Source of the DNA: Pseudomonas extremaustralis
GTDB taxonomy: Bacteria > Pseudomonadota > Gammaproteobacteria > Pseudomonadales > Pseudomonadaceae
Assembly: GCF_900102035.1 (NCBI RefSeq)
Contig: NZ_LT629689.1
Coordinates: 4,758,001 to 4,822,000, forward strand
Length of the DNA: 64,000 nt
Reading direction: 5' to 3'
Part shown: piece by piece, positions 7,014 through 55,963 of the stretch
Layout: each line of letters starts with the position of its first letter
Numbering within the stretch: the first letter of the stretch is position 1
Position numbers and translations under genes: made by a program
The notes under the pieces: generated by a model
Told to the model about the DNA's origin: nothing
Database searches by the model: none
What the model saw: the letters and a program-made list of their open reading frames with translations, nothing else

Positions 7014-7014
7014 C

Positions 7015-38003: not shown

Positions 38004-38591
38004 CTAGAGGGTTTGCAACCAGGCCTGCAGCTGTGCGACGCATTGCTGCGCGGACAGCTGGCCGGTCTCCAGGACCAGCGCGGCTTGCGGCGGCGGTTCG
38101 TAGGGTGAGCCGATACCGGTGAACCCCGGCAATTCGCCGCGTCGGGCGCGGGCGTAGTGGCCTTTGGGGTCGCGGCGTTCGCAGATGTCGAGTGCGGCGT
38201 TGCACCACACTTCCCGATAATCCGCGCCCAGGCGTTCGGCGAGCACCGCGCGCAATTCGACCAACGGGGCGATCAACGCCAGGATCACGATTTGCCCGTT
38301 ATCCACCAGCAACGCCGCCAGTTCGGCGGCGCGGCGGATGTTTTCCAGGCGGTCGCTGTCGGCAAACCCCAGGTCTTTGTTCAACCCGCCGCGCAAAGCA
38401 TCGCCGTCGAGCACGATGCTTTGTCGGCCTTGTTCGAACAACGCAGCCTGCAGTCCCTGGGCCAGGGTCGATTTACCCGACGCCGGCAGGCCGGTCAGCA
38501 GGATCGCCACGCCGCGATGACCGTTGCGAGCCTCACGCTGGGCACGCGTGATGCTCGCGGTCGGTGCCACCAGATTACTGGGCCGCAACAT
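38004..38591 (-). CDS. cysC: Adenylyl-sulfate (APS) kinase CysC, stand-alone
   Basis: 195 residues from ATG 38591; the longer frame would lie inside the TolC gene. P-loop GLPASGKST, then LDGDALRGGLNKDLGFADSD and RLENIRRAAELAALLVDNGQ, the CysC signature for APS binding, and RDPKGHYARARRGELPGFTG. It phosphorylates APS to PAPS, the sulfate donor of sulfotransferases. It overlaps the stop of the TolC-like gene by 17 bp, so it belongs to the adhesin operon rather than to cysteine synthesis. A sulfotransferase lies upstream of the adhesin. It probably supplies PAPS for sulfation of the surface product. Confidence 0.9.
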   Translation of the reverse strand: MLRPSNLVAPTASITRAQREARNGHRGVAILLTGLPASGKSTLAQGLQAALFEQGRQSIVLDGDALRGGLNKDLGFADSDRLENIRRAAELAALLVDNGQIVILALIAPLVELRAVLAERLGADYREVWCNAALDICERRDPKGHYARARRGELPGFTGIGSPYEPPPQAALVLETGQLSAQQCVAQLQAWLQTL

Positions 38592-40089
38592 GAGGCGCCG
38601 GAACGGCGATGTTGCCGGCGGCCCATGCCGATTCGCGGCCGGCCAGCGCCGTGGCGATGGATTGCACGCGGTCGGAATCGACCTGCTCCGGCAGCGGGTC
38701 GAGCCCGGCGCTGGCGAAGATCTGGCCATAGGCGTTGCGCAGGTCGGCGTAGGCCAGGTCGCGACGCAGATCGGCTTGCAGGGTATTGAGTTCGCCCTGG
38801 ATCAGGTCCAGTTCGCCCAGGCCCGCCGCTTGGTGACGGTTGCGCAACTGGGTGAGGATCTGCCCGTCGATGTCGGCCAGTTGTTCGTTGGTCTTGAACT
38901 GGCGCACGGCGTCCTGGAAGTTCGCGTTGGCGACGTAGAGTTGCGCCAGCACCGCGATGGACATGGCCTGGCGTCGTGCGGTGGCGACTTCTTCGCCGGC
39001 CTTGGCGACGTCGATGGCTGCCGGGGCGGAAAGCACGTTGAACAGGTTCCAGGTGACCTTGGCGCCGTAGTCGGCCCAGCGGTTGTCCACCAGGAAGGAG
39101 TTGCTGTCGTAATGCCCGCCGGCCGAGAACTCCAGGCCCGGCAGCAGGCGCAGCATGGCCTTGCGGGTTTCGGCGGCGCTGATGCGGGTCTGGTAGTCCT
39201 GCTCGCGCAGTTCAGGGCGGTTAGCCAGGGCTTCCTGTTCCAGGCTGGCCAGGTTGACCTTGAGCTGCGGCACGGCGTAGTCGTCCGGCGTGGCCAGCTT
39301 GAGGTCGGTGCCCATGGGCAGGTTGATCAGGGTCGACAATTCGGTCTTGGCCAGGGAGAGCGCACGGCGCTGTTCCTGCAATTGGCGCGTGGCTTCGATC
39401 AGCGAGCGCTGGTAGCCCAGAGCCTGGACCGGGTCGCCGATACGCTGTTCGCTCATGCTTTGGCTGTTGGTCTGGGCCTGGTCGACCCGCGCCATCAGGC
39501 TGTCGATCTGGGTCAGCAGGCGTTCGGCCGCGACCGCCCGCCAGTAGGCCGAGCGCACGTCCTGAACGATGGTGTTGATCACCTTGCGGCGCCGTTCCTG
39601 GACGATCAGCCGTTGGTCGCCTTGCTGTTTGGCGCTGATGTAGCTGACGCCGAAGTCGAGGACGTTCCACACCATGGTCAGGTCGGCCACGCGGCGGTCG
39701 CGGTCCTGGGACGTCGACGGTTCCAGGGACTGGGTGCCGGTGCGTACGCTCTGGCTGCTGGAGGCATTGGTGTTGTTACGCCCGGCGTAACCGGCGGACA
39801 ACGCCATGCGCGGCAGCATGTCGAAACTGGCGAGGTCGAGTTGGCGCTTGGCCAAGGCCTCCTCCATGATCTTCAAGCGCCCTTCGAGGTTGTATTTCAC
39901 CGCACGGGCCATGGCCTGGTGCAGTGTCAATGGGCCGTTCAATGGCTCCTGATTCTTGTACATGCCTTGCAGGTCGCTGCGGGCTCGTTGCTCGCTGACA
40001 CTGCGTTCAATCGGCTCGCTGGTGACCGCACAACCGCTGATCGCCAGCGCCAGCACGCTGGCGCCGAACAACTTATGAACTGTTTTCAT
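38575..40089 (-). CDS. TolC-type outer-membrane factor lipoprotein of the adhesin locus
   Basis: 504 residues from ATG 40089 (MKTVHKLFGASVLALAISGC), with lipobox AISGC. OEP-type helical segments follow: LHQAMARAVKYNLEGRLKIM, AYWRAVAAERLLTQIDSLMA, YQRSLIEATRQLQEQRRALS and LIQGELNTLQADLRRDLAYA. The N-terminal QRARSDLQGMYKNQEPLNGP head is unlike drug-efflux TolC proteins. It starts about 40 bp after the adhesin stop and overlaps cysC. It likely forms the outer-membrane exit of the adhesin export machinery; HlyD-type adaptors lie further upstream in the locus. Confidence 0.88.
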   Translation of the reverse strand: MKTVHKLFGASVLALAISGCAVTSEPIERSVSEQRARSDLQGMYKNQEPLNGPLTLHQAMARAVKYNLEGRLKIMEEALAKRQLDLASFDMLPRMALSAGYAGRNNTNASSSQSVRTGTQSLEPSTSQDRDRRVADLTMVWNVLDFGVSYISAKQQGDQRLIVQERRRKVINTIVQDVRSAYWRAVAAERLLTQIDSLMARVDQAQTNSQSMSEQRIGDPVQALGYQRSLIEATRQLQEQRRALSLAKTELSTLINLPMGTDLKLATPDDYAVPQLKVNLASLEQEALANRPELREQDYQTRISAAETRKAMLRLLPGLEFSAGGHYDSNSFLVDNRWADYGAKVTWNLFNVLSAPAAIDVAKAGEEVATARRQAMSIAVLAQLYVANANFQDAVRQFKTNEQLADIDGQILTQLRNRHQAAGLGELDLIQGELNTLQADLRRDLAYADLRNAYGQIFASAGLDPLPEQVDSDRVQSIATALAGRESAWAAGNIAVPAPHVAAQ

Positions 40090-40129
40090 CCGTGGACTGC
40101 CCCTGTTACTGCGCCTTGATTTAAGTGTG

Positions 40130-43100
40130 TCAGGCCTGCATTTCGCTGATGCCGACCTGTTGCAATGCCTGCGCCAGATCAATCACCTGACGCTGTTCCA
40201 AGTCCTTGATCTGCTGCAACTGCTGGCCCAGGGTCGGGGCGCCGAATACGCCCCGCAGGCCGTGGGCCGTATCACCGCCGCCCTGGATCGCTCTGCTGTC
40301 GAACGCCTTGAAGCCACTGTCGCCACCGCCGCTCTCCCGATTGAACAAGCCCGACAAAGTGCTTGAACCAAACACCCCGCCATCGCCGCCGCCAAAGCCG
40401 AGGAAGCCCTGCGCGCCGCCGTTCGCGCCTCCATCGCTGCTGAACACCTGGGCAATGAAGCTAGGCGCCAAGGCACCGTTGTGAATGAAGATGTTGCCGA
40501 TAGGCGGCAAGCCCGCGCCGACATCACGCTGCTCGAACAATGGCGGGAAGCCGATGGGTGAACCAATGTTGCCCACGGGCCGGCCAAACACGATCGGTTG
40601 CAGTGGAATATCCGGCGCGCCGAGTGGTGGTGCCGGATCGGTGACGCGGAACAGCGGGTCGCCGGTCAGGGCACTGGTGTTGACCGCATAGTTGTTCGAG
40701 ATCGCAATGCCGCTGCCGGCGTTACCGGCGACATCGTTGACCTGGCTGGCGTCCAGCGTGATCACGTTGCTCGCATCGGTGATCGCCGCCGTCGGGGTCA
40801 GCGTCGCCGTCCACGTTTTGCCGCCATCGTTGCTGGCCAGGTTGGACAGCACGCCGTTGGCCACACTCAGGTCAGAGAGATTGAGACCGCTGACGACCTC
40901 GCTGAAGGTAATGGTGACAGTGGTGGTCTGGCCGATGCCCAGTGTGCCGTTGGCCACGGCAATGGTCGCGGTCGGACGCTGGGTTTCGACCACATAGTTG
41001 TTGGAATCGGTGCTGCCGCTGCCCGCGTTGCCCGAGGCGTTTTGCACACCGCTGTTATCCAGGGTGATCACGTTGCTGGTGTCGCTGATCGCGCTGGCCG
41101 GTGTGAAGGTGGCCGTCCAGGTCATGCCGCCGTCGCTGCTACTGACGGCGCTCAGCGTGCCGTTGGCGACCGTCAGGTCGGCGTTGGTAAAACCGCTGAC
41201 CGCTTCGGAGAAGGTAATGGTGACCTGCGAGGTATCACCGATTTTCAGCGCAGTGTCGGCAACGACGACGGTGGCGGTCGGCCGCACTGTGTCGATGGTG
41301 AAGTTGCCCGAGTTGGTGATACCGCTGCCGGTGTTGCCGGCCAGGTCGGTGTAGCCGGCGTTGTTCAGGCTGATCAGGTTGGTGGTGTCGCGGGTGTTGC
41401 TGCTCGGTGTGAACGTCCCTATCCAGGTGACCCCGCCATCCTGGCTGGTGAGTGCCGAGAGGCTACCGTTGGGCACGTTCAGGTCGCTGTTGTCAAAACC
41501 GCTGACGGCTTCCGAGAACGTGACCGTGACCAAAGAAGTTTCGCCCGCCTTCAATACAGGGTCGGCAATCACGATGGTCGCCGTCGGACGCAGGCTGTCG
41601 ATCATATAGGCGTTGGACGACGTGATACCGGACCCCAAATTACCGGCGATATCGGACACGCCAGTGTTGTCCAGGACAATGTGATTGTTGCTCTGGGTAA
41701 TGCCTGCCACCGGCGTCAACGTCGCGGTATAGGTGATGTTGTCGTTGGTGCTCAGGTTGCTCAGGGTGCCGTTGTCGGTGGTCAGATCGGCCAGGCTGAA
41801 CCCGGTCACAGCTTCGCTGAAAGTGACGGTCACCAGCGACGAACTGCCGATCCCCATATGATCGTTGCTCACCACCACCGTTGCGGTCGGACGCTGGGTG
41901 TCGATGGCGTAGTTATTGGAATTGCTGGTGCCGATGCCGACATTACCCGACACCGCCGCCTGGACGCCGCTGTTGTCCAGGGTGATCTGGTTGGTGGCGT
42001 CGGTTTGGTTGGCGCTCGGGGTGAACGTCGCGCCCCAGGTAATGCCGCCGTCACTGCTGCTGACCGCGCTCAAGGTGCCATTGGTGATCGTCAGGTCGGC
42101 ATTGCTGAAACCGGTCACGGCCTCGTTGAACGTAATCGTCACTTGGGAGGAATCGCCGATTTTCAGCACCGGGTTGGCCACCACGATGGTCGCCGAAGGC
42201 AACACCGTATCGATGGTGTAATTCGCCGAATTGGTGGTGCCCGCGCCTGCGTTGCCGGCCAGGTCGGAGACGCCGGTGTTGGCCAGGGCGATCACGTTGT
42301 TCGCGCTGTTGGTGTTTGTCCCTGGAGTGAAGGTCGCGGTCCAGGTGATGCCGGCGTCGGCGCTGCTCAGGCTGCTCAGGCTGCCGTGGCTTGCCGTCAG
42401 GTCGGCGAGGGTGAAGCCGGTCACGGCTTCGCTGAAGGTGATGGTCACCAGCGATGTTTCGCCTGCGTGAAGCGCCGGGTCGGCAACCACGATGGTTGCG
42501 GTGGGGCGCAGGGTGTCGATGGCGTAGTTGTTGGAGTCAGTGGTCCCGCTGCCCGCGTTGCCGCTGGTGTCGCTATAGCCGGTATTGTCCAGGGTGATGA
42601 CGTTGGTGGTGTTGGTGACGCTCGCTGTGGGCGTGAAGGTTGCCGTCCAGGTGACGCCACCGTCGCTGCTGCTCACCGCACTCAGGGTGCCACTGGACAC
42701 GGTCAGGTCAGCGTTGCTGAAACCGACCACGGTTTCCGAGAAAGTAATGGTCACCTGCGAGGTCTGGCCAATGATCAGGGAATCGTTCGCCACCACCACA
42801 GTGGCGGTGGGACGCACGCCGTCGATGGCCACGTTGTTCGACGTGGTGCTGCCGCTGCCGGCGTTGCCCGCCATGTCCTGGACCCCGGTGTTGTCCAGGG
42901 TGATGTGGTTGCTCGCGTTGACGATACTCGCTGTCGGGGTAAAGGTGGCGGTCCAGGTGGTACCACCGTCGTTGCTGCTGACCGCGCTCAGGGTGCCATT
43001 GGACACTATCAGGTCGGCGTTGGTGAACCCGGTCACGGCTTCGCTGAAGGTGATGGTCACCAGCGAGGTCTGGCCGATGCCCAGGTTGCTGTTGGCGAAC

Positions 43101-45889
43101 ACGACAGTCGCGGTCGGCCGCACGGTGTCGACCGCATAGGTGTTGGAATTGGTGGTGCCACTGCCGGCGTTGCCCGCGCCATCACTGACTGCGGTGTTGT
43201 TCAGGGTGATGACATCGCCGGTACGGATAACCTCGGGGCTCGCAGTCAGGGTTGCGGTCCACGTGAGACCACCATCGTTGCTGCCCAAGTTGCTCAGGAT
43301 GCCGTCGGCGACGGTGAAGGCGCCGGCGGTGAGCCCGGTGACCGGCTCGCTGAAGGTGATGGTCACCAACGATGTGTTACCGCTGATGTTCAGTGCGGTA
43401 TCGGACACCACGATGCTCGCGGTCGGCCGCACGGTGTCGATCGCATAGGTATTGGAAGTGGTTGTGCCGGTACCGGCGTTGGTCGCCGTATCGGTATAGA
43501 GGGTGTTGTCCAGGGTAATGACATTGCCGCTGCTGCTATTGTTGCTGCCGGTCGGCGTCAGGGTCGCGGTCCAGTGGATATTGTCGCTGGTGGTCAGGTT
43601 GCTCAGGGTGCCGTTGGACGCCGACATGTCGGTAAGGCTGAAACCGCTCACCGCTTCGCTGAAGGTAATGTTCACCGTCGAGTTGACCGTGGTGCTCAAC
43701 GTCGGCGCAACCACCGTAACGGTCGCGGTCGGGCGCACGGTATCGATGGTGAAGTTGTTGGACGAGGTGGTACCGGTCCCCGGTGTCCCCGTCGACGTAG
43801 CGGTGACGCCGCTATTGTCGAGGACAATATGGTTGGTGGCGCTGGTCACGCTCGCGCTCGGCGTAAAGGTCGCGGTGTAGGTGATGTTGTCACTGGTATT
43901 CAGGGTGCCCAGGGTACCGTTGCTGATCGTCAGGTCGGCGCTGGTAAAGCCGGTCACGGCCTGGTTGAAGGTAATGGTCACCAGCGAGGTGCTGCCGATG
44001 TGCTGCGCGGTGTTGGTGACCACGATGGTCGCGGTCGGGGCCGGACTGTAAGCGGTGTTCGCCGTTCCGCCGATATCGTTGAACAGACCGTTGACTGCTG
44101 TGGGTTTGCTGCCCGCCGAGGCGTTGGTGGCCAAGCCTCCGTTACCACTGGCACCGGTGTTGGCCGAACCGCCCAGCGCGGCGAAGTTGGCCGCCGTGAT
44201 CAATACCGTGCCTTTGTTCCAGATGGCACCGACACCCAGGCCACCGTCACCGCCATTCAGAGCAGTGTCGCTGCCGGTAGCCGAACCGCCACCGCCGCCG
44301 CCGCCGGCACCGATGTTACCGGTAATCGAGCTGGTGCCGACGATGGTCAGGGTGGCGCCGCTGGCGTTGTAGATACCGCCAGCCGCTCCGCCGCCCTTGC
44401 CACCGGCACCATCCCAGCCGGAACCACCCCCGCCGCCGCCGATCGACAAGGCGCCAGAGCTCGCTGTGCCACCCGCGGAGCCGTTGGTATAACCCCCGAG
44501 ACCGGTCGAGCCGGCGCCACCGACGCTCGAACCGCCGCGACCGCCCATGGTGTAGGCGCCCCCGCCTGCCCCCCCAAGGTTGGTTGAACCTGCGATACCG
44601 GCGTACAGGCCGGCCCCGGAGTTGCCGCCAGTCCCGCCGATGCCGCCGCCCAACGCGCCGCCACCACCACCGCCACCGCTGGCATTACTAACGCTCGCGC
44701 CACCACCACCGCCGCCGCCTGAGGCCGCGTTCGCTGTCACGCTGACATTATTCAGGGTCAGGACACCGAAGTTACTTATCCCCGCCCCCAACAAATTGGC
44801 TGCGGTGGCACCGCTGCTATTGGCGCTGCCATTGCCGCCGTTGCCAGCCGCTAGACCCTGGGTGATAACCAAGCCGTCCAAGGTCGCGGTGACACCGCTG
44901 TTAACCTTGAGCACCTGGGTCTTGTACTGCCCGCTGAGAGTCACGTCAGCAACGCCGTCGAGGTTCAGGTCGCCTTCGACGGTCAGGTTCTTGCTGATGA
45001 CCAGTTGCGAATTCAAGTTGACCGTCATGTTGGCGTTGAAGGTGATGATGTCGCCCGCCACCGCGCTGCTCAGGGCCGAGCGCAGTGAGCCGACGCCGCT
45101 GTCGGCATTGCTGGTCACGGTAATGGTCGCCAGGCCGTACTGGTAAGCGGCCAAAGCGTCGGTCGAGAGTACGTTGTGGCTTTCGATGGAGCCGGTGGCG
45201 ACTTCCAGGGTCCAGTCGCCGCCCAGGCCGGTGCGGTTGGTGGACGCGGCGATATCGCGCCCGGTCAGTTGCGCCAGGGAATCGACAAAGTTGATGCCCT
45301 TGTCGCCGGCGGCGGTGTTACAGGCGTAGATCAGGATATCGCCGCCCACGTTCATGTCCTGGCCGATCTGCGCCAGCACTTCGCTGCGGGCCGCGACGTT
45401 GTCGGCGGACAAATAGGTATTGCCCAGCCACAGGTCACCGGCATTGCCGTGGGCGATGATCTGCACCGAGCTGACGCCCTGATGGCTGCCCAGGTAATCG
45501 GCGATCTGCTGCAGGCCGTCCCTGCTGGCATCCAATTGCACCACTTGGGTGCCGGGGGCGACGCCCTTGAGCAGTTCGGCGGAATCCTTCACGCGGGCAT
45601 CGACAAACACCACGCTTTGCCCCGGCACGGCAACCGGTGCGGGGGTGGCGGGCGCGTCGGACTGCGGGTGGCTTTCGCTGCCGGTGGCGGCGCGTTCGGT
45701 GGTCGCCGGCGCCTTGGCTGCGGCATCTGCGGTGGCGGTGGCGTGGCTGTCAGCCTGGGCCGCATCGGCCACAGTGGCGGCCACGGCGCCGTCGAACAGC
45801 ATGCGCGGTTCCAGGGACATAATCATCGGCGTCGCCAGGGTGCTGGCATTGGTTGTTGCTGGCCGTGCCTTAACGTTGTTCCACCACAT
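40130..45889 (-). CDS. Giant LEPR-XLL/DUF4347 surface protein with Ig-like repeats
   Basis: 1919 residues from ATG 45889 (MWWNNVKARPATT), with GGGTGAG upstream; a farther start at 45958 would overlap the sulfotransferase. Order of parts: an N-terminal LEPR-XLL sorting/processing motif (LEPRMLFDG at 26-34), an Ala/Thr/Pro-rich linker, a DUF4347 domain (about 92-255) with H147 in IIAHGNAG and C190 in IYACNTAAG, a beta-helix start (VTSNADSGVGSLRSALSSAV), a Gly-rich beta-helix, then eleven Ig-like repeats of about 102 residues (each with RPTATxVV...VTITFSEAVxGF). A non-repetitive C-terminus ends in a Gln-rich helix. No RTX nonapeptides. Predicted secreted or surface-anchored adhesin of the neighbouring export genes. 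Confidence 0.9.
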   Translation of the reverse strand: MWWNNVKARPATTNASTLATPMIMSLEPRMLFDGAVAATVADAAQADSHATATADAAAKAPATTERAATGSESHPQSDAPATPAPVAVPGQSVVFVDARVKDSAELLKGVAPGTQVVQLDASRDGLQQIADYLGSHQGVSSVQIIAHGNAGDLWLGNTYLSADNVAARSEVLAQIGQDMNVGGDILIYACNTAAGDKGINFVDSLAQLTGRDIAASTNRTGLGGDWTLEVATGSIESHNVLSTDALAAYQYGLATITVTSNADSGVGSLRSALSSAVAGDIITFNANMTVNLNSQLVISKNLTVEGDLNLDGVADVTLSGQYKTQVLKVNSGVTATLDGLVITQGLAAGNGGNGSANSSGATAANLLGAGISNFGVLTLNNVSVTANAASGGGGGGGASVSNASGGGGGGGALGGGIGGTGGNSGAGLYAGIAGSTNLGGAGGGAYTMGGRGGSSVGGAGSTGLGGYTNGSAGGTASSGALSIGGGGGGSGWDGAGGKGGGAAGGIYNASGATLTIVGTSSITGNIGAGGGGGGGSATGSDTALNGGDGGLGVGAIWNKGTVLITAANFAALGGSANTGASGNGGLATNASAGSKPTAVNGLFNDIGGTANTAYSPAPTATIVVTNTAQHIGSTSLVTITFNQAVTGFTSADLTISNGTLGTLNTSDNITYTATFTPSASVTSATNHIVLDNSGVTATSTGTPGTGTTSSNNFTIDTVRPTATVTVVAPTLSTTVNSTVNITFSEAVSGFSLTDMSASNGTLSNLTTSDNIHWTATLTPTGSNNSSSGNVITLDNTLYTDTATNAGTGTTTSNTYAIDTVRPTASIVVSDTALNISGNTSLVTITFSEPVTGLTAGAFTVADGILSNLGSNDGGLTWTATLTASPEVIRTGDVITLNNTAVSDGAGNAGSGTTNSNTYAVDTVRPTATVVFANSNLGIGQTSLVTITFSEAVTGFTNADLIVSNGTLSAVSSNDGGTTWTATFTPTASIVNASNHITLDNTGVQDMAGNAGSGSTTSNNVAIDGVRPTATVVVANDSLIIGQTSQVTITFSETVVGFSNADLTVSSGTLSAVSSSDGGVTWTATFTPTASVTNTTNVITLDNTGYSDTSGNAGSGTTDSNNYAIDTLRPTATIVVADPALHAGETSLVTITFSEAVTGFTLADLTASHGSLSSLSSADAGITWTATFTPGTNTNSANNVIALANTGVSDLAGNAGAGTTNSANYTIDTVLPSATIVVANPVLKIGDSSQVTITFNEAVTGFSNADLTITNGTLSAVSSSDGGITWGATFTPSANQTDATNQITLDNSGVQAAVSGNVGIGTSNSNNYAIDTQRPTATVVVSNDHMGIGSSSLVTVTFSEAVTGFSLADLTTDNGTLSNLSTNDNITYTATLTPVAGITQSNNHIVLDNTGVSDIAGNLGSGITSSNAYMIDSLRPTATIVIADPVLKAGETSLVTVTFSEAVSGFDNSDLNVPNGSLSALTSQDGGVTWIGTFTPSSNTRDTTNLISLNNAGYTDLAGNTGSGITNSGNFTIDTVRPTATVVVADTALKIGDTSQVTITFSEAVSGFTNADLTVANGTLSAVSSSDGGMTWTATFTPASAISDTSNVITLDNSGVQNASGNAGSGSTDSNNYVVETQRPTATIAVANGTLGIGQTTTVTITFSEVVSGLNLSDLSVANGVLSNLASNDGGKTWTATLTPTAAITDASNVITLDASQVNDVAGNAGSGIAISNNYAVNTSALTGDPLFRVTDPAPPLGAPDIPLQPIVFGRPVGNIGSPIGFPPLFEQRDVGAGLPPIGNIFIHNGALAPSFIAQVFSSDGGANGGAQGFLGFGGGDGGVFGSSTLSGLFNRESGGGDSGFKAFDSRAIQGGGDTAHGLRGVFGAPTLGQQLQQIKDLEQRQVIDLAQALQQVGISEMQA
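40680..44045 (-). repeat. Eleven tandem ~306-bp repeats coding Ig-like domains of the adhesin
   Basis: Each unit codes about 102 residues starting RPTAT (LPSAT or APTAT in two units) and ending near NNYAIDT. The units are diverged at protein and DNA level, so they are old internal duplications, not recent copies. Not a CRISPR or mobile repeat. Confidence 0.9.
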
Positions 45890-45927: not shown

Positions 45928-45955
45928 AAAAAAAACCGCGATCAACTGATCGCGG
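45928..45955 (-). terminator. Rho-independent terminator between sulfotransferase and adhesin genes
   Basis: On the minus strand CCGCGATCA-GT-TGATCGCGG followed by eight T residues. The sulfotransferase stop codon lies inside the hairpin. It separates the sulfotransferase from the adhesin, whose ATG is about 40 bp further down. Confidence 0.88.
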
Positions 45956-46894: not shown

Positions 46895-48532
46895 TTAGCG
46901 ACACCCCTCTGATTGCGATGACTCTGGGCCGAGGCATAGCACGAATAGTCGCGCCCTGGCACCGCCACCGTCCTGCTGCATTATTTGACGCCATCCGTCC
47001 GGCAGCGGCGCAAAATCGTCCGGCGCTTCGTTGCTGCTGATCAGCCAGACACGCTGGGTAGTGGCCGGCAATGCCGACAAGCGGTCGAGGTAAATACGCC
47101 CGCCGTCCTGATCCACCAGGGTGCCAAACCCATAGGAGTTCGGCCGCGTCGGTGTGCCATCAGGCTTGGGCGGGGTGTAAAGCTGCAATTGGGCGTCGGT
47201 GCGGTCGTAATACACGTAGCTGAGGTACCACAGCATGTCGCTGAGGACGATGCGGTCACCTTCCTGGTAGTTGCGATTGACGAACTCCACCGGCACGTTG
47301 AATTGGTCATCCACATCCACGGTCGCGTTGTTCTTCACCCCCAGCAGTTCCACACCGAGGCACAGCACGAACAATGCCGCGCCCAGCCATGCAAGGCGCC
47401 TGGGCAGACGGTCGATGGCCAGCGCCAGGAGGATCGGCAAAGCCAGGGCATAGACGGTGAGGTAACGCTCGATAAACACCGACGAGATAAACGAAACCCC
47501 GTACACCAACAGCAGCGGCAGCAGGAAAAACAGCGCCAACAGCCCGGCCGGCCGGTAGCGCCCCTTATCGTGCCAGGCGCAGACACCGACCACGGCCACC
47601 AGCAGCAGCGGGAATGACCAGAACAGCACTGGCCTTAAGCCAAGGCCTTCATCCTGCAACATAAACTGCCAGATCATCGACGGCACAGAGAACAGGTTGA
47701 CCGGCGCTTCCCAGCCGATGTCGCCGCCGACCTTGAGCTGCTCGACATGCTGCACCAGGCCCACCAGGTTCGGCAGCCAGGGCAGGTACACCAGCACGAT
47801 CCCGACGTTGGCCAGCCACCAGGCCGGACGCGTGATCAAGCGCCGAGCGGATGGTTGGGACGCACTCAACAGCCCCAGCCAGGCCCAATGCACCAATACA
47901 CACAACGCGGTGAAGTAATGGGTGTAGAAACCGGCCGCCATCAGCAGCCCATACACCAGCAGGTAGCGTGTGCGCGCGGGTTGGCGCACCCAATACACCA
48001 GCGCCAGCGTCGCGCCCAGCAGCCACACGCCGAGCAGCGAGTACATACGCACTTCCTGGCTGTAGCGCACCGCGCTGGGAAACAGCGCCAACAGCACACC
48101 CGCCAGCACTGCGGCGCGAAAGGTCGACAACTGCCGCGTGAGCCAGATGCCCAGGCCCACCACGACCACGCCGGGAATCGCACTCATGCTGCGAATCGAC
48201 CAGATGCCATCGCCGAACAGCTCGATCCAGCCGCGCAGCAAGAAGAAATACAACGGCGGATGCACATCGTGGGCGGCGTGAAACCACAGGTCGGCCGCCG
48301 CATATTGGCTGAGCAGCAGGCTCGAACCTTCGTCGCCCCAGATCGCTGCGGCGGTCAGTCCATAAAAACGCACGGCAAGCGCCAGCGCCAGAATCGGCAC
48401 CCACCATAACCGGCGCAACCAACCGCCATCTTCGCGGGCCTCCGCGAGGCGATTGGCGGCCGAAATCACCCCAACTTTGTCGTCTTGCTCTACCACAGAC
48501 CGTTGCACCCCAATTCCCCTGCCACTGCCCAT
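46895..48532 (-). CDS. GT39/PMT-like membrane glycosyltransferase
   Basis: 545 residues from ATG 48532; a longer frame begins with TTG at 48610. About ten hydrophobic helices and a C-terminal periplasmic domain. The first loop has IWGDEGSSLLLSQ, with the DE pair of the GT-C fold, and HAAHDVHPPLYFFLLRGW, with the HPPL motif of GT39 (PMT/ArnT relatives). A later loop has SQEVRMYSLLGVW. Such enzymes use polyprenyl-phosphate sugars to glycosylate protein or lipid in the periplasm. Co-directional with the sulfotransferase (86 bp downstream) and the export genes upstream; the exported adhesin, rich in Thr and Ser, is a plausible acceptor. Confidence 0.85.
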   Translation of the reverse strand: MGSGRGIGVQRSVVEQDDKVGVISAANRLAEAREDGGWLRRLWWVPILALALAVRFYGLTAAAIWGDEGSSLLLSQYAAADLWFHAAHDVHPPLYFFLLRGWIELFGDGIWSIRSMSAIPGVVVVGLGIWLTRQLSTFRAAVLAGVLLALFPSAVRYSQEVRMYSLLGVWLLGATLALVYWVRQPARTRYLLVYGLLMAAGFYTHYFTALCVLVHWAWLGLLSASQPSARRLITRPAWWLANVGIVLVYLPWLPNLVGLVQHVEQLKVGGDIGWEAPVNLFSVPSMIWQFMLQDEGLGLRPVLFWSFPLLLVAVVGVCAWHDKGRYRPAGLLALFFLLPLLLVYGVSFISSVFIERYLTVYALALPILLALAIDRLPRRLAWLGAALFVLCLGVELLGVKNNATVDVDDQFNVPVEFVNRNYQEGDRIVLSDMLWYLSYVYYDRTDAQLQLYTPPKPDGTPTRPNSYGFGTLVDQDGGRIYLDRLSALPATTQRVWLISSNEAPDDFAPLPDGWRQIMQQDGGGARARLFVLCLGPESSQSEGCR

Positions 48533-48745
48533 TTCCTGGGCCAAACCTGCGCACGCGCAAACAAGCGCCACTCTAGGACAAAAGCCCCGGATTCGCTCGT
48601 TGTTTCGCAACCGGCGGGCAGCGGGGAAACCTGCGTCTACAGGCAGTGATGAGGCCGGATCAAAGGCACTACTGCCCCTGAACGGTGCACATCCGCAGAG
48701 GTCTGGGCTGGCGGTCCAGATCCAACGTGCGACCGATGCGCTCCG

Positions 48746-50842
48746 TCAGAATCCGCTTTCCCGCACGCCCAAGGCCGCGGCTCGGCGCCAGGCCACGCCC
48801 AGCACCGACTCGCTGCGCCCTTGCAACACCACCACGCCGCGCAACGGTTGATGGGGGGTGGCGATCGGTTGCGCACTGCGTAGCCGCACGCCGTACTGCG
48901 CCTGCACCGGCGCCGGGCGCTGGTTTTCGTCGCGGCGCACGGCAATCGGCCCGTGGTGGTCAGAGGTCAGGGCTTCCTGATCCAGATAGGCCACGCCATT
49001 GGCATCGATATCGGTCAACACCACCGGAATGGCAGCGCGCATCGGGTCATCGGCGATAAACCGCCCGGTCGCCCCCGGCGCCACCCGCCACAGCTCGGCT
49101 TCCTCCAGATAACCGCGCAGGCGCGCACCCTCTTCGACCACTTGCGCCAGCGGGTCTTTAGGCGACAGCCAACGGCCCACGCTCAACTGCGGCAACACGT
49201 CGCGCACGGTGCCGGCATGGGGGGCGCGCAATAACAGGCGTTCACGCTGGGCGGCGAGCCCGCGATATTCGGCCAGGGCCTGGGACAAGCGCTGATCGTT
49301 GATCCCGGCGTCGGCCGCGGTTTCACTGCGCCCAGCCTGGCGACGCATCTGCAACTGCAGGATCTCCACTTCGCGGCGCACGATGCTTTGCCGCGCGTCC
49401 AGGTCCGGCGATTCCAATTCGATCAGCACCTGGCCCTGGGTCACGACTTGCCCATCCACCACCCGCAACTGTTTCACCCGCGCCGCCACCGGCGCGTGCA
49501 AGGCACTGGCGCGCCCGGCCTCGAGCATGCTCGGCAACTCCACGGCACTGCGCCACGGCACCACCAGGGCCAGCACGATCAACAGCAGGCCCAGGCCGCT
49601 GAGCAGTACCCGCGGCGCATGGGCCTGGCTGCGGCGACTCCACCATTCGCGCCACTCCTTGAAGATCGGCAGGCAGATGAACCACACCAGTTCCACCAGC
49701 ATCAGAAAGATCCCGAGCAGCTTGAAGAACAGGTGATACACCGCCAGGGCGATCCCCAGGAACAGCGCCGCCCGCCACAACCAGGCCAGGTAGCCCCACC
49801 ACAGCAGGCGCCGTTGCATATTCGGCGCCCAGGGTTCCGGCGCCGGTTCGCCATAGCCGAACAACCACTCGCGCAGGCGCCAACGGCAAAGGGCGAAGGC
49901 GCGGCCTTGCAGGTTGTCGACGCCCCACAGGTCACTGATCAAAAAGTAACCATCGAAGCGCATGAAGGGGTTGAGGTTGATCGCCAGGGTGGTCAGCCAT
50001 GTCGCACTGGCCAGCATGAACGCCGCCGTGCGCGCCGCGCCGTCCGGCAGCAGCGACCAGGCCAGCAAGGCCACGCAGGCCAGCAACAATTCGGCCATCA
50101 CCCCACCGGCGCCGATCAGCAACCGCGCGCGCCGATCATTGACCCGCCAGGCATCACTCACATCGGTGTAGAACATCGGCAGCAACACCATGAACGCCAC
50201 GCCCATGCTTTGCACGCGACACCCGGCACGCTTGGCCATGAAGGCGTGGCCGAACTCATGGCACAACTTGGCAAAGAACAACGCCGCGCCAAACGCCAGG
50301 GCCCCGCCGAGGCTGAACAGATGCGGAAACGTCGCGAGAAAGCGCTGCCAGTCCCGCGCCACCAGAAACACGCCCAGGCCCAGGGTCAGCGGCAAACCGT
50401 AGCGCAACAGCCCCGGCCCGAAGCGCGCCAGCCACGGCCAGGCGCGGTTGAGGAATGCATCCGGGCGCCACAGCGGGATGCGAAAGAACAAATATTGATG
50501 CAGCAGGATTTGCCACAGGCTTTGCTTACGGGCGGCGGCCTTGTAGGCGTAACTGGCTCGTTGCTGCGGGTCCAGCGCGGCGATCAGGTCATGGGCGCGC
50601 AGGAAACTCAGCAGCTCATCCACTTCGCTGGCGCCCAGGGGCAGGCCCGGCTCACGGTTGGCGGCTTGCAGGACGTGTTGCGGGTCGCCCAGGGACCAAT
50701 GGCGCAGCAGCCGAATGGCGGTGGTGCCGAGCTTGAAGTAACGCCCGCGCACCGGGTCGGCCAGGGTCCAGCGCGGCGAACCGTCCAGGGCCGCGCCGGC
50801 GCTGGACAGTTGCAAGTCTTCACGCAGTGGGGGCAGGTTCAT
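48746..50842 (-). CDS. M50 metalloprotease fused to a HlyD-type arm (possible PqqD-like head)
   Basis: 698 residues. Residues 24-88 (WTLADPVRGRYFKLGTTAIR, RHWSLGDPQHVLQ) resemble a PqqD-type RiPP recognition element. The membrane core has the zinc motif H195-E-F-G-H199 in LCHEFGHAFMAK and the second M50 motif NPFMRFDGYF at 291-300. After more helices come the half-lipoyl HlyD segments (HAPVAARVKQLRVVDGQVVT, RAPHAGTVRDVLPQLSV) in the periplasm. A zinc site-2-type protease joined to an adaptor arm could cleave and hand over a substrate, here perhaps the LEPR-XLL adhesin. Its start shares one base with the stop of the preceding gene (TGATG). Confidence 0.88.
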   Translation of the reverse strand: MNLPPLREDLQLSSAGAALDGSPRWTLADPVRGRYFKLGTTAIRLLRHWSLGDPQHVLQAANREPGLPLGASEVDELLSFLRAHDLIAALDPQQRASYAYKAAARKQSLWQILLHQYLFFRIPLWRPDAFLNRAWPWLARFGPGLLRYGLPLTLGLGVFLVARDWQRFLATFPHLFSLGGALAFGAALFFAKLCHEFGHAFMAKRAGCRVQSMGVAFMVLLPMFYTDVSDAWRVNDRRARLLIGAGGVMAELLLACVALLAWSLLPDGAARTAAFMLASATWLTTLAINLNPFMRFDGYFLISDLWGVDNLQGRAFALCRWRLREWLFGYGEPAPEPWAPNMQRRLLWWGYLAWLWRAALFLGIALAVYHLFFKLLGIFLMLVELVWFICLPIFKEWREWWSRRSQAHAPRVLLSGLGLLLIVLALVVPWRSAVELPSMLEAGRASALHAPVAARVKQLRVVDGQVVTQGQVLIELESPDLDARQSIVRREVEILQLQMRRQAGRSETAADAGINDQRLSQALAEYRGLAAQRERLLLRAPHAGTVRDVLPQLSVGRWLSPKDPLAQVVEEGARLRGYLEEAELWRVAPGATGRFIADDPMRAAIPVVLTDIDANGVAYLDQEALTSDHHGPIAVRRDENQRPAPVQAQYGVRLRSAQPIATPHQPLRGVVVLQGRSESVLGVAWRRAAALGVRESGF

Positions 50843-52161
50843 CAGAGGCCAACGCTCTGGCGCAAGCCAGCCAATGGCCGACGCAACAGGTACAGGGCCA
50901 GGGGCGCGCGCTCACCGAAGAGCTTCGCCGTGCCGCGCAGGCCGATGCGTGGCGGTGCCTCGTCGAAGCGTGCATCGAGGCGATAGGCGAGTTGCCCGCC
51001 GGGCGTGGGCTGCGCCTCGTAGGCGGCGCGTTGCAAGGTGGCGAGGTGGCGCTGCAACGGGTCGCTGTCGAGGAACAGCGCGACCTGGGCGTCGGGCGCC
51101 AAGGCGATGGCATCGCCCACCGCCAGTTCGATGCGCAACTCCGCTTGGCCGGGGTCGGCGATCTGCAGCAGACGTTCGCCGGTCTGCACCGGTTTGCCGG
51201 TCCAACGCTCGGCGTCGGCAAACACCGCGATACCATCACGCTCGGCGCGCACTTCGCTGCGCTTGAGCAGTTCGCGGGCGTAGTCGCGCTCGGCGCGTTT
51301 TTGCTCGACCCGAGCCGCGAGCAGGTCAATACGCGAACTCGACTCGGCATCGGCAAAGGCACGTTGGGAATTGGCCTTGAGTTCCGCTTCGGCCACACCC
51401 AAGGCGCGCGCCGCCACATCGGCCTGGGCCGTGAGGGTGGTGCTTTCGAAGCGCAGCAGCAAGTCGCCGGTTTTCACCGTCTGGTTGGGCTTGACCAGGA
51501 ACTCGGCGATCACCCCGTCCAACGGCGCCGCCACCACCTGACCGGCCAACGGCACCACTTCAGCGGGCGCCAGTACCGATTGGCGCACCGGAATCAGCAG
51601 CATCAGCAGTAACGCGACCACCACCAGCACCTGGCGCTTGCGGGTCAGGCGCAGCCGCCATGGCTGGCGCGGTTGCAGGGCGCGCCAGGCGTGGCTGTAG
51701 GTATCGCCCAACTGCGCCAGCAGCACTTGCTCGGCCGGGTTCCAGGCGATATCCCGCGCCAGCCACACACCACCGAACACGCGGCCTTGCGGGTCGATCA
51801 AGGGCAACCAGAACACATGGCCGGCGGACAGGCTCTGCCAGTCGGCCTGCAGTTGCGCACTCAATTGCGCGGCCGGCACTTCCCGGGCGGTCTGGCCCAG
51901 CCCGAGTTTGTGCAATTGCGCCACGGCCTGCTCGACGAAGGCCACGAACGGCGCATTCGGGTCGATGCTGCTCACCGCCGTCACCGCCCGCACCTTGCCG
52001 GCGATCAACAGTGCCGCATGACGGTAGCCGAACAGCGGTTGCCCATCGTTGACCAGGCTGTAGGCCAATTGCTCAGTGCTGTGGGCCGCGCGGGTCTGGC
52101 GCTCCAACTCGAGAAACTGCGCGAATACCCGCTCGACATTGCCCGTCATCGGCGCGTTCAT
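50842..52161 (-). CDS. HlyD-family membrane adaptor with N-terminal GAF-like domain
   Basis: 439 residues. The first 165 residues (FLELERQTRAAHSTEQLAYS, RHAALLIAGKVRAVTAVSSI, FWLPLIDPQGRVFGGVWLAR) look like a cytoplasmic GAF-type sensor. A membrane helix (RKRQVLVVVALLLMLLIPVR) follows and then a HlyD periplasmic arm (VVAAPLDGVIAEFLVKPNQT, LKRSEVRAERDGIAVF). It overlaps the preceding adaptor gene by 4 bp and shares one base with the M50 gene. Likely an inner-membrane adaptor of the same export complex, with possible ligand or c-di-GMP-like control through the GAF part. Confidence 0.85.
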   Translation of the reverse strand: MNAPMTGNVERVFAQFLELERQTRAAHSTEQLAYSLVNDGQPLFGYRHAALLIAGKVRAVTAVSSIDPNAPFVAFVEQAVAQLHKLGLGQTAREVPAAQLSAQLQADWQSLSAGHVFWLPLIDPQGRVFGGVWLARDIAWNPAEQVLLAQLGDTYSHAWRALQPRQPWRLRLTRKRQVLVVVALLLMLLIPVRQSVLAPAEVVPLAGQVVAAPLDGVIAEFLVKPNQTVKTGDLLLRFESTTLTAQADVAARALGVAEAELKANSQRAFADAESSSRIDLLAARVEQKRAERDYARELLKRSEVRAERDGIAVFADAERWTGKPVQTGERLLQIADPGQAELRIELAVGDAIALAPDAQVALFLDSDPLQRHLATLQRAAYEAQPTPGGQLAYRLDARFDEAPPRIGLRGTAKLFGERAPLALYLLRRPLAGLRQSVGL

Positions 52162-52931
52162 TGCAGTTGGGCAAAGTGAGCGGTGCCGCTCATGCCGGCC
52201 ATCAACCCACTGGCATTGGGCAAGGTCGCGACCAACAACAAGGTCTGGCTGCCTTCGTCGATGCGGGCGCCAAGGCGTTTGACGGTGGCGCTGAACGCCT
52301 TGCCAGTTTCATCGGGGGTGAAACTGAACGTCTGTCCGGGCTTGAGCTTGCCCATCCAGCGCGACGGCACCAGCAGGTGGATCTCCAGGCTGCGGTTGTC
52401 GACGATTTCCAGCAGCGGCGCGCCGGCCGAGACGCTTTCATAGCGCTGGACTTTGCGCTGCACCACTTGGCCGTCATACGGCGCCAGCACGCTGCAGCGC
52501 TTGACCTGCACCTGATAGACCTGGGACTGGGCCTGGGTTTCGGTGAGTTTGGCTTCGGCGCGAGCCACTTCAAACCGGCCGACCGAATTGAGCGCCGCCA
52601 GTTGTTTGTTGTGCGCCAGTTCTTCGCTGGCGCCACGGCTGGCGGCCGAGGCGGCATTGAGCTGGGCCTGGTAGGCCGAGCAATCGAAACGCGCCAGGGT
52701 GTCGCCTTTCTTGAACGACTCGCCCTCGCTGAACGGCAGCTCGACAATCCGCCCCGACAATTCACTGGCGAGCATCGCCTGGTCACGGGCACGCAATACA
52801 CCACGGGCTTCACTGTCAGCGCTAACGGCCACTGCGGGCGCAGGGTCCAACAGCGGATCGTCCGCCATGGCCATCTGCGCCAGACTCACCAAGCAGGAAA
52901 ATCCCAGCACCGATCTATATAACAACTTCAT
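52158..52931 (-). CDS. Periplasmic HlyD/RND-type adaptor protein
   Basis: 257 residues. A cleavable signal peptide (MKLLYRSVLGFSCLVSLAQM, ending AMA) is followed by an adaptor fold: lipoyl halves ARDQAMLASELSGRIVELPF and RCSVLAPYDGQVVQRKVQRY, a short coiled-coil (AQLNAASAASRGASEELAHN) and a beta-barrel (LEIHLLVPSRWMGKLKPGQT). GGGAGGTCAAG sits 7-8 bases before ATG 52931. First gene of the adaptor/M50 operon. No cognate RND pump is encoded here, so it probably works with the two other HlyD proteins and the TolC-like factor. Confidence 0.88.
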   Translation of the reverse strand: MKLLYRSVLGFSCLVSLAQMAMADDPLLDPAPAVAVSADSEARGVLRARDQAMLASELSGRIVELPFSEGESFKKGDTLARFDCSAYQAQLNAASAASRGASEELAHNKQLAALNSVGRFEVARAEAKLTETQAQSQVYQVQVKRCSVLAPYDGQVVQRKVQRYESVSAGAPLLEIVDNRSLEIHLLVPSRWMGKLKPGQTFSFTPDETGKAFSATVKRLGARIDEGSQTLLLVATLPNASGLMAGMSGTAHFAQLQ

Positions 52932-53093: not shown

Positions 53094-55262
53094 ATGCGCA
53101 TCGGTTTTCTGTCACCCCTGGCACTGGCACTGCTCGCCAGCCTCTCCCAGCCGGTACTCGCCAGCTCCGATGACTCGTGCTACCCCGACTGGAGGGTCTC
53201 GCGGGACAGCCTGGACACCTGCAACAATCTGCCGTTCCTGAGCCCCGGCAATGACAGCCGGACCAACCTGCGCCTGTTGCTGGCCGACAAAAAAGCCGCA
53301 CCCCTGGCCCCGAACGCCTTGGGCGAGGACGACCTGTCCCAAGGGTTCGGCTCGGTGCCGTTCCCGGTGTATCGCCTGGTGCCGATCACCGCCGCGCCAG
53401 CCGAACCGGATAACACGCCGCACGCCTCACCCAGCGCCGAACTCGACACCTTGCTCCAGCCATTGGGCATCAAGCGCGACGAATACAAAGCAGCGGGGGC
53501 TGACTTCCTGAATGGCGAAGGCAGCCGCTGCCGCAGCAACGACGATGACAGCGCCACCGCCTTTATCCGCCAGGTGCTCAAGGCCGATATACCGGCGGTC
53601 GAACGCGAGCGACTGGTGAAGGCGCGTTTGCAATTGCTCACGGCCTGTTCCTGGGAAGGCCAAGTGGTGGATCCACAGCAGATTCAATCCAGCGAAGGCC
53701 AACTGTTTCGTACATACCTGCAGGCCGCCGCCGACTTTTATAGTGGCCGTTTCAGTGACGCCGAGCGCGGTTTCGCCGGCGCCAGCGTCAGCAATGTGCC
53801 CTGGCTGAAGGAAACCGCGCTGTACATGACCGCGCGAACATCACTGAACCAGGCGCAGGCCGACGCCTTCGACGAATACGGCATGCCGCAACTCGAGCAT
53901 GTGGATAAGTCCGCCCTGAGCGCCGCCGAAGAAGGCTTCCTCGGTTACCTGAAGACTTATCCACAGGGTGATTACGTCGCCTCCGCCCGTGGCCTGCTGC
54001 GCCGGGTGTATTGGCTGGCGGACGATCAAGCCAAGCTCGCCGAGGCCTACGCCTGGCAATTGACCCAAGCCACCGACGCCCAGCGCAACGTGTCCGTGGA
54101 TGAGCTGGTGGCCGAGGCCGACCTCAAGCTGCTGATGGGCAATAGCAACGCGGTCAAGAACCCGATGATCCTGCTCGTCAGCGACCTGATGCGGATGCGC
54201 GCTCACACGCCGCCCGCCCTCACCCGCGCCGACCTCGATCAACAAAAGGCCGTGTTTGCCGACGCCCCCGCGCTGTTCGACTACCTGCAAGCGGCGTATG
54301 CCCTGTACGTTGAGCATCAACCCGACAACGCACTGAAGCACTTGCCCCAGGACGTGCCGTCGAACCCGGATTACTTCGCCTTCAGCCAACAGACCCTGCG
54401 CGGCCTGGCCCTGGAAGCCAAGCAAGACTGGAAAGCCGCCGAAACCCTGTGGCTGCAACTGCTGCCGCTGGCCAAGCAACCGTTGCAACGCGACCAGTTG
54501 GAGCTGGCCCTGGCGATGAACTACGAACGCAGCGGCCAGTTGGCCAAGGTGTTCGCCGCCGATTCGCCGATCGGCGCCAAACAGGTGCGCTACATCCTGC
54601 TGCGCCACATCGCCGGGCCGGACTTGCTACGCCAGCAGATCGCCCAGGCCCGCGACCCGCTGGAGCGCCAGACCGCCCAATTCGTGCTGCTCTATAAAGA
54701 CCTGCTGCGCGGCCAGTTCGCCACCTTCAACGACGACCTCAAGCACCTGCCGGCGTCGGCCCCGGACGACAAACTGGGTACCAGCCTGGGTTATGTCTAT
54801 AGCGCCAGCCAGACGTTGAAACTGTTCCAGTGGAACGGCGACAAGGCCGAATCGGGCTACGCCTGCCCGAGCATTGCGCAAACCGCCGCAACCTTGCAGA
54901 ACGATGCGAAAAATCCCCACGGCCTGAACTGCTTCGGCGAGTTCATCCTGCGCAACAACCTCGACGGCATGCCCATTGAACAGGCACGCGCCGCCGGCAG
55001 CCTGGGCAGCACGCCATCGGACTTCAAGGGCGACACCTTCTCGCGGCTCGACGGCTACCAACAGGTGATCGGCAACCCCAAGGCGCCGAAAGCCGACAAG
55101 GCCTACGCGCTGTTCCGCGCCATCAACTGCTACGCGCCCGCCGGCTATAACAGCTGCGGCGGCACCGACGTCGCACCGGCCGTGCGCAAGGCCTGGTTCC
55201 GCCAACTCAAGACGGGCTTTGCCGACACGCAGTGGGGCAAATCCCTGCAGTACTACTGGTGA
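53094..55262 (+). CDS. Exported TPR-like protein, unknown function
   Basis: 722 residues. Signal peptide MRIGFLSPLALALLASLSQP, cleaved after VLA. The middle has helical repeats of TPR type (FRTYLQAAADFYSGRFSDAE, PDYFAFSQQTLRGLALEAKQ, DWKAAETLWLQLLPLAKQPL). Cysteines at the start (DDSCYPDW, DTCNNLP) and the end (LNCFGEF, INCYAPAGYNSCGG) may form disulfides. Starts divergently from the adaptor/M50 operon and overlaps the DUF3142 gene (GTGA). Periplasmic or outer-membrane; probably an accessory of the adhesin system. No named family recognised. Confidence 0.8.
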   Translation: MRIGFLSPLALALLASLSQPVLASSDDSCYPDWRVSRDSLDTCNNLPFLSPGNDSRTNLRLLLADKKAAPLAPNALGEDDLSQGFGSVPFPVYRLVPITAAPAEPDNTPHASPSAELDTLLQPLGIKRDEYKAAGADFLNGEGSRCRSNDDDSATAFIRQVLKADIPAVERERLVKARLQLLTACSWEGQVVDPQQIQSSEGQLFRTYLQAAADFYSGRFSDAERGFAGASVSNVPWLKETALYMTARTSLNQAQADAFDEYGMPQLEHVDKSALSAAEEGFLGYLKTYPQGDYVASARGLLRRVYWLADDQAKLAEAYAWQLTQATDAQRNVSVDELVAEADLKLLMGNSNAVKNPMILLVSDLMRMRAHTPPALTRADLDQQKAVFADAPALFDYLQAAYALYVEHQPDNALKHLPQDVPSNPDYFAFSQQTLRGLALEAKQDWKAAETLWLQLLPLAKQPLQRDQLELALAMNYERSGQLAKVFAADSPIGAKQVRYILLRHIAGPDLLRQQIAQARDPLERQTAQFVLLYKDLLRGQFATFNDDLKHLPASAPDDKLGTSLGYVYSASQTLKLFQWNGDKAESGYACPSIAQTAATLQNDAKNPHGLNCFGEFILRNNLDGMPIEQARAAGSLGSTPSDFKGDTFSRLDGYQQVIGNPKAPKADKAYALFRAINCYAPAGYNSCGGTDVAPAVRKAWFRQLKTGFADTQWGKSLQYYW

Positions 55263-55963
55263 AGACGCTGTGGCTCGGCTTGCTGTTGCTGGCAAGCCCG
55301 GCTTTCGGTGCGGTCGACGCCCGCGACTATGACGCTTTCTGGCTGTGGAGCGGCGTCGCTCCGCAACCGGTACTCAAGCAGGCGAAAACCCTCTACATCC
55401 TCCAGGGCCAGATCAACGCCACACGCCGCGCACCTCAGCGCGGCGTGCAATTGATCGCCCAGGGCATCAGCGTGCCGCGTCTCACTGAAGGCGATGTCTG
55501 GATCGTCTACCGCGCCCACACCCTGCACTGGCCGGAACAGGTCTACACCCAACTACTCGGCCAGGTACAACGCTGGCGCGACGCCGGCAACCCGGTGGTC
55601 GGCATCCAGATCGACTTCGACGCCCGCACTCAATACCTGCACGAATACGCCACCTTCCTGCGTGACCTGCGCCAGCGCCTGCCCGCCGACCTGCGCCTGA
55701 GCATCACCGGCCTGATGGACTGGAGCAGCAACGCCGACCCCACCGCCATCGCCCAACTCAAGGGCGTGGTGGATGAGGTGGTGGTGCAGACATATCAGGG
55801 GCGCCACAGCATCCCGGACTACGCCGCGTATTTGCCGCGGATGAACCGGTTGGGGGTGCCGTTCAAGATTGGGTTGATTCAGGGCGGGGAGTGGCAGGCG
55901 CCGGGGTATTTGCAGGAGAGTGAGTGGTTTCGGGGGTATGTGGTGTTTTTGCGCAATCCCTGA
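55259..55963 (+). CDS. DUF3142 domain exported protein
   Basis: 234 residues from GTG 55259 (MKTLWLGLLLLASPAFG as read with initiator Met); the GTG overlaps the TPR stop by 4 bases. A signal peptide is followed by AFWLWSGVAPQPVLKQAKTL, GIQIDFDARTQYLHEYATFL, RLSITGLMDWSSNADPT and VQTYQGRHSIPDYAAYLPRM, the DUF3142 pattern. This looks like a TIM-barrel glycoside-hydrolase relative (the DFDART acidic pair). It could act on cell-surface polysaccharide. A longer frame from GTG 55232 is possible. Transcribed with the TPR gene. Confidence 0.83.
   Translation: MKTLWLGLLLLASPAFGAVDARDYDAFWLWSGVAPQPVLKQAKTLYILQGQINATRRAPQRGVQLIAQGISVPRLTEGDVWIVYRAHTLHWPEQVYTQLLGQVQRWRDAGNPVVGIQIDFDARTQYLHEYATFLRDLRQRLPADLRLSITGLMDWSSNADPTAIAQLKGVVDEVVVQTYQGRHSIPDYAAYLPRMNRLGVPFKIGLIQGGEWQAPGYLQESEWFRGYVVFLRNP

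Follow-up and report, generated by a model that had tools for sequence, protein, structure and literature searches.

A locus at positions 38004..55963 of the stretch of Pseudomonas extremaustralis DNA analyzed here (the window, 64,000 nucleotides of a 6.67 Mb genome; contig NZ_LT629689.1, positions 4,758,001 to 4,822,000) encodes a giant protein with a short N-terminal LEPR motif together with an M50 intramembrane protease fused to a HlyD arm, further HlyD-type adaptors and a TolC-type lipoprotein. The module to which this locus belongs is widespread and recurs across Proteobacteria; its core unit is the export set plus the giant protein, with sulfation and glycosylation as additions in Pseudomonas. 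The pairing of LEPR proteins with the M50/HlyD protein is well supported, and a sequence-only reading of this DNA, which had drawn attention to the association, is confirmed in this respect, the association being larger than first reported. We consider it reasonably likely that the LEPR motif is a leader resembling those of ribosomally synthesized and post-translationally modified peptides (RiPPs), and that it is read by the M50/HlyD protein, which would cleave the giant protein or hand it over to TolC. Three features go beyond the sequence-only reading, which had not noted them: the PqqD-like domain of the M50 protein, the LEPR motif as the tag that this protein probably recognizes, and the caspase-like fold of DUF4347. 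A description of the module was not found in the open-access literature searched, the scope of which did not extend to preprints.

The co-occurrence of LEPR proteins with M50/HlyD fusions, which the sequence-only reading had singled out as the informative comparison, was assessed at several phylogenetic levels. Within a set of 36 genomes of the same genus, the window's own included, a full-length M50/HlyD gene is present in 24, LEPR is present in the identical 24, and the other 12 have neither; three genomes (G008, G010 and G027) encode two LEPR and two M50/HlyD proteins each. Across 274 class-wide genomes the narrow LEPR model matched 11: all 6 with matches below 1e-6 carry M50/HlyD (G179 only as a piece at a contig end), and among the 5 weaker ones G168 and G285 have an adjoining M50/HlyD gene and G243, G301 and G176 have none at 1e-20. 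Since the model based on alignment A4 was too narrow for one of the two leader types described below (S-type), LEPR was also scored with alignment A6 and with the NCBI model NF012209 (LEPR-8K). In 299 phylum-wide genomes, A6 found LEPR in 65 and M50/HlyD was found in 85, both being present in 64; the lone A6 LEPR genome lacking M50/HlyD (G503) is 57% complete. A6 was built mostly from M50-linked proteins, a possible bias for which NF012209 provides an independent check: this model matches 49 of the 299 genomes (the window's own genome gives no match), and 47 of the 49 have M50/HlyD, the exceptions being a 64-residue frame (G592) and a genome that is 86% complete (G525). Taking both models together, 78 of 81 LEPR genomes carry M50/HlyD (Fisher p 2e-59, relatedness ignored). 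Of the 21 genomes that have M50/HlyD but gave no LEPR match with A6, NF012209 recovers 14, leaving seven (G508, G511, G050, G331, G376, G517 and G443). Of these, G508 and G511 have giant proteins with the motif LEQRIAFDAAG beside the module, the M50 protein of G050 is just 408 residues long, and no LEPR motif was seen in the stretches inspected from G331, G376 and G517. The A6 LEPR genomes span 25 family labels, each of which also contains M50/HlyD genomes. The list used for linkage distances (54 LEPR places, 48 of them on the same contig as a listed M50 place) was hand-picked, and reliance was therefore placed on the 11 A6 LEPR genomes assembled into no more than two contigs; in all of them a LEPR start is found at most 31 kb from an M50 gene. 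The proposed unit of M50/HlyD protein, adaptors and TolC is tied to LEPR genome by genome and by linkage, and it comes without an ABC (ATP-binding cassette) gene of its own. Separately, a protein that bears the motif LEKRIVFDAAA and resembles the window's giant protein at its N-terminus was observed in G301 (L229:6341-9946), where M50/HlyD was not found at 1e-20; the stretch L229 ends with its contig.

The genes named in the sequence-only reading are all present where it had placed them. They form an operon-like run on the minus strand: a periplasmic adaptor of the RND/HlyD membrane fusion protein type (52158..52931; RND_mfp 3.4e-39, TIGR01730 134.7 bits, HlyD_3 2.9e-19) with a hydrophobic, signal peptide-like N-terminus; a protein with a GAF-like N-terminal domain, a transmembrane segment and a HlyD arm (50842..52161; HlyD_3 1.9e-14); the M50/HlyD protein; a GT39-like glycosyltransferase; a sulfotransferase; the giant protein; a TolC-type outer-membrane factor lipoprotein (38575..40089; OEP 8e-41, with the lipobox LAISGC as read from the sequence); and an adenosine 5'-phosphosulfate (APS) kinase. 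The GAF-like label holds in part. No GAF domain was detected in the window protein itself, and the label rests on relatives: of the 9 that were scanned, L223 and L285 have GAF matches exceeding the Pfam cut-off, L113 and L217 have weaker ones, and the other five have none. The nearest named M50 locus, in P. marginalis ICMP 3553_3, shows 99% identity over the best segment of the M50 protein. In 80 of 80 named Pseudomonas loci (the best 80 of 201 found were kept), the M50/HlyD gene comes after the adaptor and GAF/HlyD genes, and the arrangement seen in the window is hence not a matter of chance. Among the 67 of these loci with at least 6 kb downstream, the sulfotransferase is present in 65, the giant protein in 62 and GT39 in 56; in the two loci without a sulfotransferase match, the GT39 gene runs off the end of the stretch. 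In distant genomes the set of TolC, adaptor, GAF/HlyD, M50/HlyD and giant protein is found again with its genes rearranged (giant-TolC-adaptor-GAF-M50, TolC-adaptor-giant-GAF-M50 and adaptor-GAF-M50-giant-TolC). Neither the sulfotransferase nor GT39 gave a match (E<=1e-5) in stretches from outside the window's genus, and sulfation and glycosylation are therefore accessory; the view of the sequence-only reading that they belong to the system does not hold beyond Pseudomonas, and the proposal that they are core was rejected.

The giant protein of the window (40130..45889, minus strand) has 1919 residues from its ATG, a DUF4347 domain (6.7e-52; 45140..45613) and 11 Big_12 stretches, and its motif, LEPRMLFDGA, occupies residues 26-35 (45785..45814). 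All 18 diverse examples in A4 share L, E, R and D without exception, and all 21 broader ones in A6 share E and R, for a consensus of L-E-x-R-x-x-[LF]-[DS]-[AG]-A. The motif may start as early as residue 4 (MRKLEQRVVLDAA, L222) and lies in a region predicted to be disordered; in the N-termini of 37 giant proteins there is no strongly hydrophobic stretch (top 19-residue mean 1.56, mostly about 1). Two leader types can be told apart, a D-type (LExR..FDGA) and an S-type (LEPRLLLSAD). LEPR proteins range in size from 836 residues (L222) to open frames of about 19,400 residues. RTX repeats are essentially absent from the window protein, with one GGxGxD match in 1919 residues, and of the LEPR proteins scanned just two have more than two RTX-type matches, three in each, many of the open reading frames (ORFs) being truncated. 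DUF4347 has a caspase-like (clan CD) fold with a His/Cys dyad, and H147 and C190 are invariant. DUF4347 was also considered as the tag and was dropped, because the LEPR proteins of L119 (over its first 1500 residues) and L124 (over its whole length) show none. At the two ends of the size range, compact modules in L221 and L222 have proteins of 836-1116 residues starting MRKLE[EQ]RVVLDAA between TolC and M50, followed after M50 by an ABC-type gene that we take to be Uup-like, and LEPR-8K matches occur in stop-to-stop frames of 19,427 (G380:C115, 112865), 15,434 (G340:C1, 496108) and 15,251 residues (G334:C1, 2799186).

The M50/HlyD protein (48746..50842, minus strand; Peptidase_M50 1.8e-7, HlyD_3 4e-10) combines three parts. 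Residues 1-90 (50573..50842) form a domain resembling PqqD and other RiPP recognition elements (RREs), the HExxH zinc motif lies at residues 195-199 (50246..50260), and the HlyD arm spans residues 430-698 (48749..49555). HExxH and the conserved Asp of M50 site-2 proteases are present, and H195, E196, H199 and D297 are invariant in all aligned M50 proteins (14/14 in A1 and 21/21 in A7). An AlphaFold2 model (mean predicted local distance difference test score 85) places an N-terminal unit of three strands and three helices (b-b-b-a-a-a) before the first long membrane helix, followed by a membrane part of several helices that holds the zinc site, and then the HlyD arm. A profile of 35 M50 N-termini (A5), searched against 177,635 PDB sequences, matched PqqD (3g2b) first (E=0.0016) and second TbiB1 (0.054), which we take to be a lasso-peptide RRE protein, with PqqC/D at 0.14 and 1.1; 4 of the 10 chains at E<=10, the top two included, are PqqD, PqqC/D or TbiB1. 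The Pfam PqqD model matches 10 of the 35 N-termini at E<=1 (best 3.2e-5) and PqqD-type NCBIfam models match up to 7, the window's own being in neither group. By profile and predicted fold, the domain would thus be a winged-helix, PqqD-like one, and it is predicted to be cytoplasmic because it precedes the first transmembrane helix. Leader type follows the protease: all six S-type leaders traced (L296, L298, L303, L309, L310 and L311) fall in one M50 clade, with support of 1.0 against 32 D-type proteins (the D pairs of G172 and G175 were matched by genome, not by contig). This pattern is the one expected of a matched leader and reader, and shared descent alone could also give it.

On the preferred reading, the core is a module, linked to TolC, that exports and processes giant proteins. 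The short leader at the extreme N-terminus would be bound in the cytoplasm by the PqqD-like domain, as RREs bind RiPP leaders, and the M50 site at the membrane would either cleave at or near the leader or hold it. The connection to the TolC lipoprotein would be made by the HlyD arms of the M50 and GAF/HlyD proteins together with the soluble adaptor, so that no dedicated ABC ATPase would be needed for the giant protein to arrive at the surface. Gating of the unit may fall to the GAF-like domain, and DUF4347 may self-cleave, trimming or releasing the giant protein. In Pseudomonas, the sulfotransferase, fed by the extra APS kinase, would sulfate the giant protein before export, and the GT39-type enzyme would glycosylate it on the periplasmic side. 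More tentatively, and with somewhat less confidence than in the reading just given, the module could represent a new export class, defined by a RiPP-type leader (LExR..[DS]A) read by a PqqD-like domain, by hand-over to TolC without an ABC protein and by at least two specificities (D and S).

Several observations weigh against this reading. Outside the genus, at the order level, M50/HlyD scores above 150 bits in 6 genomes and LEPR (A4) was found only in G049; the contigs of G043 and G053 begin inside the giant gene, that of G051 measures 4.1 kb, and the surroundings of the M50 genes in G045 and G038 showed no giant LEPR gene. Some LEPR matches lie away from any M50 gene, for instance that of G334 at 2799186 and the second match in G163. 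The window's own LEPR stretch falls below the NF012209 cut-off (12.7 versus 17 bits), and its own RRE segment matches no Pfam or NCBIfam model at E<=1. The E-values obtained with A5 are moderate, the third PDB match being a MarR regulator and two others Siglec-7. Structure searches with the whole M50 model matched only the HlyD arm among the matches listed, which is why the RRE-like domain was tested by profiles. No energy source for export was found for the module. On the last point, the HlyD-type adaptor and TolC-type channel are both present, as a type 1 secretion system (T1SS) requires, and an unlinked T1SS ABC ATPase such as that of lap could energize export, the M50/HlyD set then serving as a processing or alternative adaptor unit. 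A Vibrio LEPR-XLL protein described in an excerpt of PMC10868602 has a C-terminal RTX/serralysin region, which suggests export of that protein by a T1SS. Among 57 relatives, 41 have an LssB-type T1SS ABC protein over the cut-off, whether or not LEPR is present, and in seven Pseudomonas genomes (G005, G010, G011, G019, G021, G029 and G035) it lies about 5-14 kb from M50, a lap-type ABC gene adjoining the adaptor gene in G035 (= L079). The scoring covered three ABC families, LssB, HlyB and PrtD, with only 16 candidates per genome.

An unlinked ATPase is nonetheless unlikely as a general solution, although it survives best among the alternatives. As the sequence-only reading had noted, neither an ABC ATPase nor RTX repeats mark the locus: there is no ABC gene among its ten genes, and RTX repeats are hardly seen in LEPR proteins. 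A motif search for ORFs with Walker A and ABC signature in 197 fetched stretches, of which many are partial and some overlap, found none among the recognized module genes; such an ORF occurs somewhere in the stretch in 35. LssB does not track LEPR, since 11 of the 12 same-genus genomes that lack LEPR (all but G017) have it over the cut-off. In the window's genome it lies about 192 kb from the M50 gene. That reading had named an unlinked ABC ATPase that is always present and required as an observation that would refute its model, and this was addressed in part by a targeted follow-up search of 8 chosen genomes: no LssB, HlyB or PrtD ABC is over the cut-off in G049 or in G008, a genome with two modules, and G006 and G026 have PrtD only. 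A classical T1SS ATPase is therefore not always present, and the suggestion that the ABC gene is simply elsewhere is weakened within the three T1SS families and 8 genomes searched. A functional link between the lap-type ABC and the module is possible in the seven genomes where the two lie close, and is not general.

A route in which Sec carries the giant protein over the inner membrane, with the module acting from the periplasm outward and GT39 glycosylating it on the way, is also improbable and ranks behind the unlinked ATPase. Enzymes of the PMT type act on the periplasmic side, and GT39 accompanies the module in most named Pseudomonas loci, as this route would have it; against it stand the lack of a strongly hydrophobic signal near the LEPR motif in the 37 proteins, the predicted cytoplasmic position of the PqqD-like domain and the lack of GT39 matches outside the genus. 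M50 proteases often act in signalling, but that the M50/HlyD protein is an RseP-like regulatory protease controlling the locus, LEPR being a mere conserved N-terminal feature, is very improbable given its HlyD arm, the linked TolC and adaptors, a LEPR co-occurrence that persists where gene order changes, and a leader type that tracks the protease clade.

Among the accessory genes, all on the minus strand, the sulfotransferase (45942..46808; PF13469 1.2e-16; no signal or transmembrane segment seen) is TPST-like as judged by similarity and by its 3'-phosphoadenosine 5'-phosphosulfate (PAPS) motifs. The best solved match of its profile (A8) is protein-tyrosine sulfotransferase 1 (TPST1, E=1.3e-5), and the motifs GLPRSGSTLL and VRNVAWxxDS are invariant in 11 sequences; cytochrome c matches from a single-sequence search were discarded, as they were gone with the profile search. 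The GT39/PMT_2-type glycosyltransferase lies at 46895..48610 (PMT_2 2.6e-13), and the APS kinase at 38004..38729 (TIGR00455 193.7 bits, cut-off 138.7) is one of four matches over the cut-off in the window's genome. In L003, whose M50 protein is 99% identical, about 1.5 kb of extra sequence (12097-13638) lies between M50 and GT39 or the sulfotransferase; this stretch is common in Pseudomonas loci and absent from the window (48610-48746), and in some loci it holds what, from the look of the sequences, are presumably a GNAT-like and a tail-collar (MdpB-like) gene. Divergent from the run, on the plus strand, are a protein of the NCBIfam PA5441 family (53094..55262; 1027 bits) and a DUF3142 protein (55232..55963; 57.4 bits). 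The former had been described as an exported tetratricopeptide repeat protein; the divergent gene is there, and the repeat assignment was not borne out, as there is no Pfam match at 0.1. It adjoins the module (window 53094-55963) in 26 of 80 named loci, and is on that account probably a neighbour and not part of the system.

Elsewhere in the window, a PgaA-type outer membrane barrel and a polysaccharide deacetylase/GHL13 gene (25264-29775) make up a poly-N-acetylglucosamine-like matrix locus. At 2724-14000, a tRNA-Arg is followed by a DUF6538 ORF, which we take to be a possible integrase, and by about 10 kb of lower G+C (0.50-0.55), possibly an integrated island.

The pairing described here offers a testable partner and function for the widespread LEPR-XLL motif, and would tie RiPP-type leader recognition to the secretion of giant proteins. 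If the proposed route is correct, it is one that searches for T1SS ABC genes would miss, and its consequences would be broad, as the M50/HlyD gene is present in 85 of the 299 phylum-wide genomes sampled; it would also provide a further example of TPST-like sulfation, with a giant bacterial protein as the target. Should an unlinked ABC protein or Sec be needed, the module would be a variant of tripartite export, and the leader logic would still be new. The N-terminal motif of the giant protein is that of the LEPR-XLL/LEPR-8K domain (NF012209), even though the window's copy scores below the model cut-off, and no partner for this domain was found in the open-access literature searched, which was in part available as excerpts. 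With type 1 secretion (HlyB/HlyD/TolC; LapEBC) the module shares a TolC-type channel, HlyD-type adaptors and a giant repetitive protein; unlike it, the module has no visible ABC ATPase and hardly any RTX repeats, and has a conserved N-terminal motif and extra M50 and GAF-like parts. As described in PMC6637879, the Rax system of Xanthomonas (RaxST, RaxA, RaxB and TolC) likewise sets a TPST-like sulfotransferase and PAPS supply beside HlyD/TolC export genes, as the window locus does; there RaxB removes a double-glycine leader from a 60-residue peptide, whereas the window locus has an M50-HlyD protein and a giant protein. The closest parallel in leader recognition lies with PqqD/RRE domains and the M50 proteases of RiPP pathways, given a PqqD-like domain joined to an M50 core and a short N-terminal motif, and the window M50 protein scores 145 bits, below the cut-off of 300, with NF041824 (M50 RiPP proteases; daptide and YydH/LiaK models). 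Unlike in RiPP systems, however, the substrate of the module would be a large protein, and its protease has a HlyD arm and sits with TolC.

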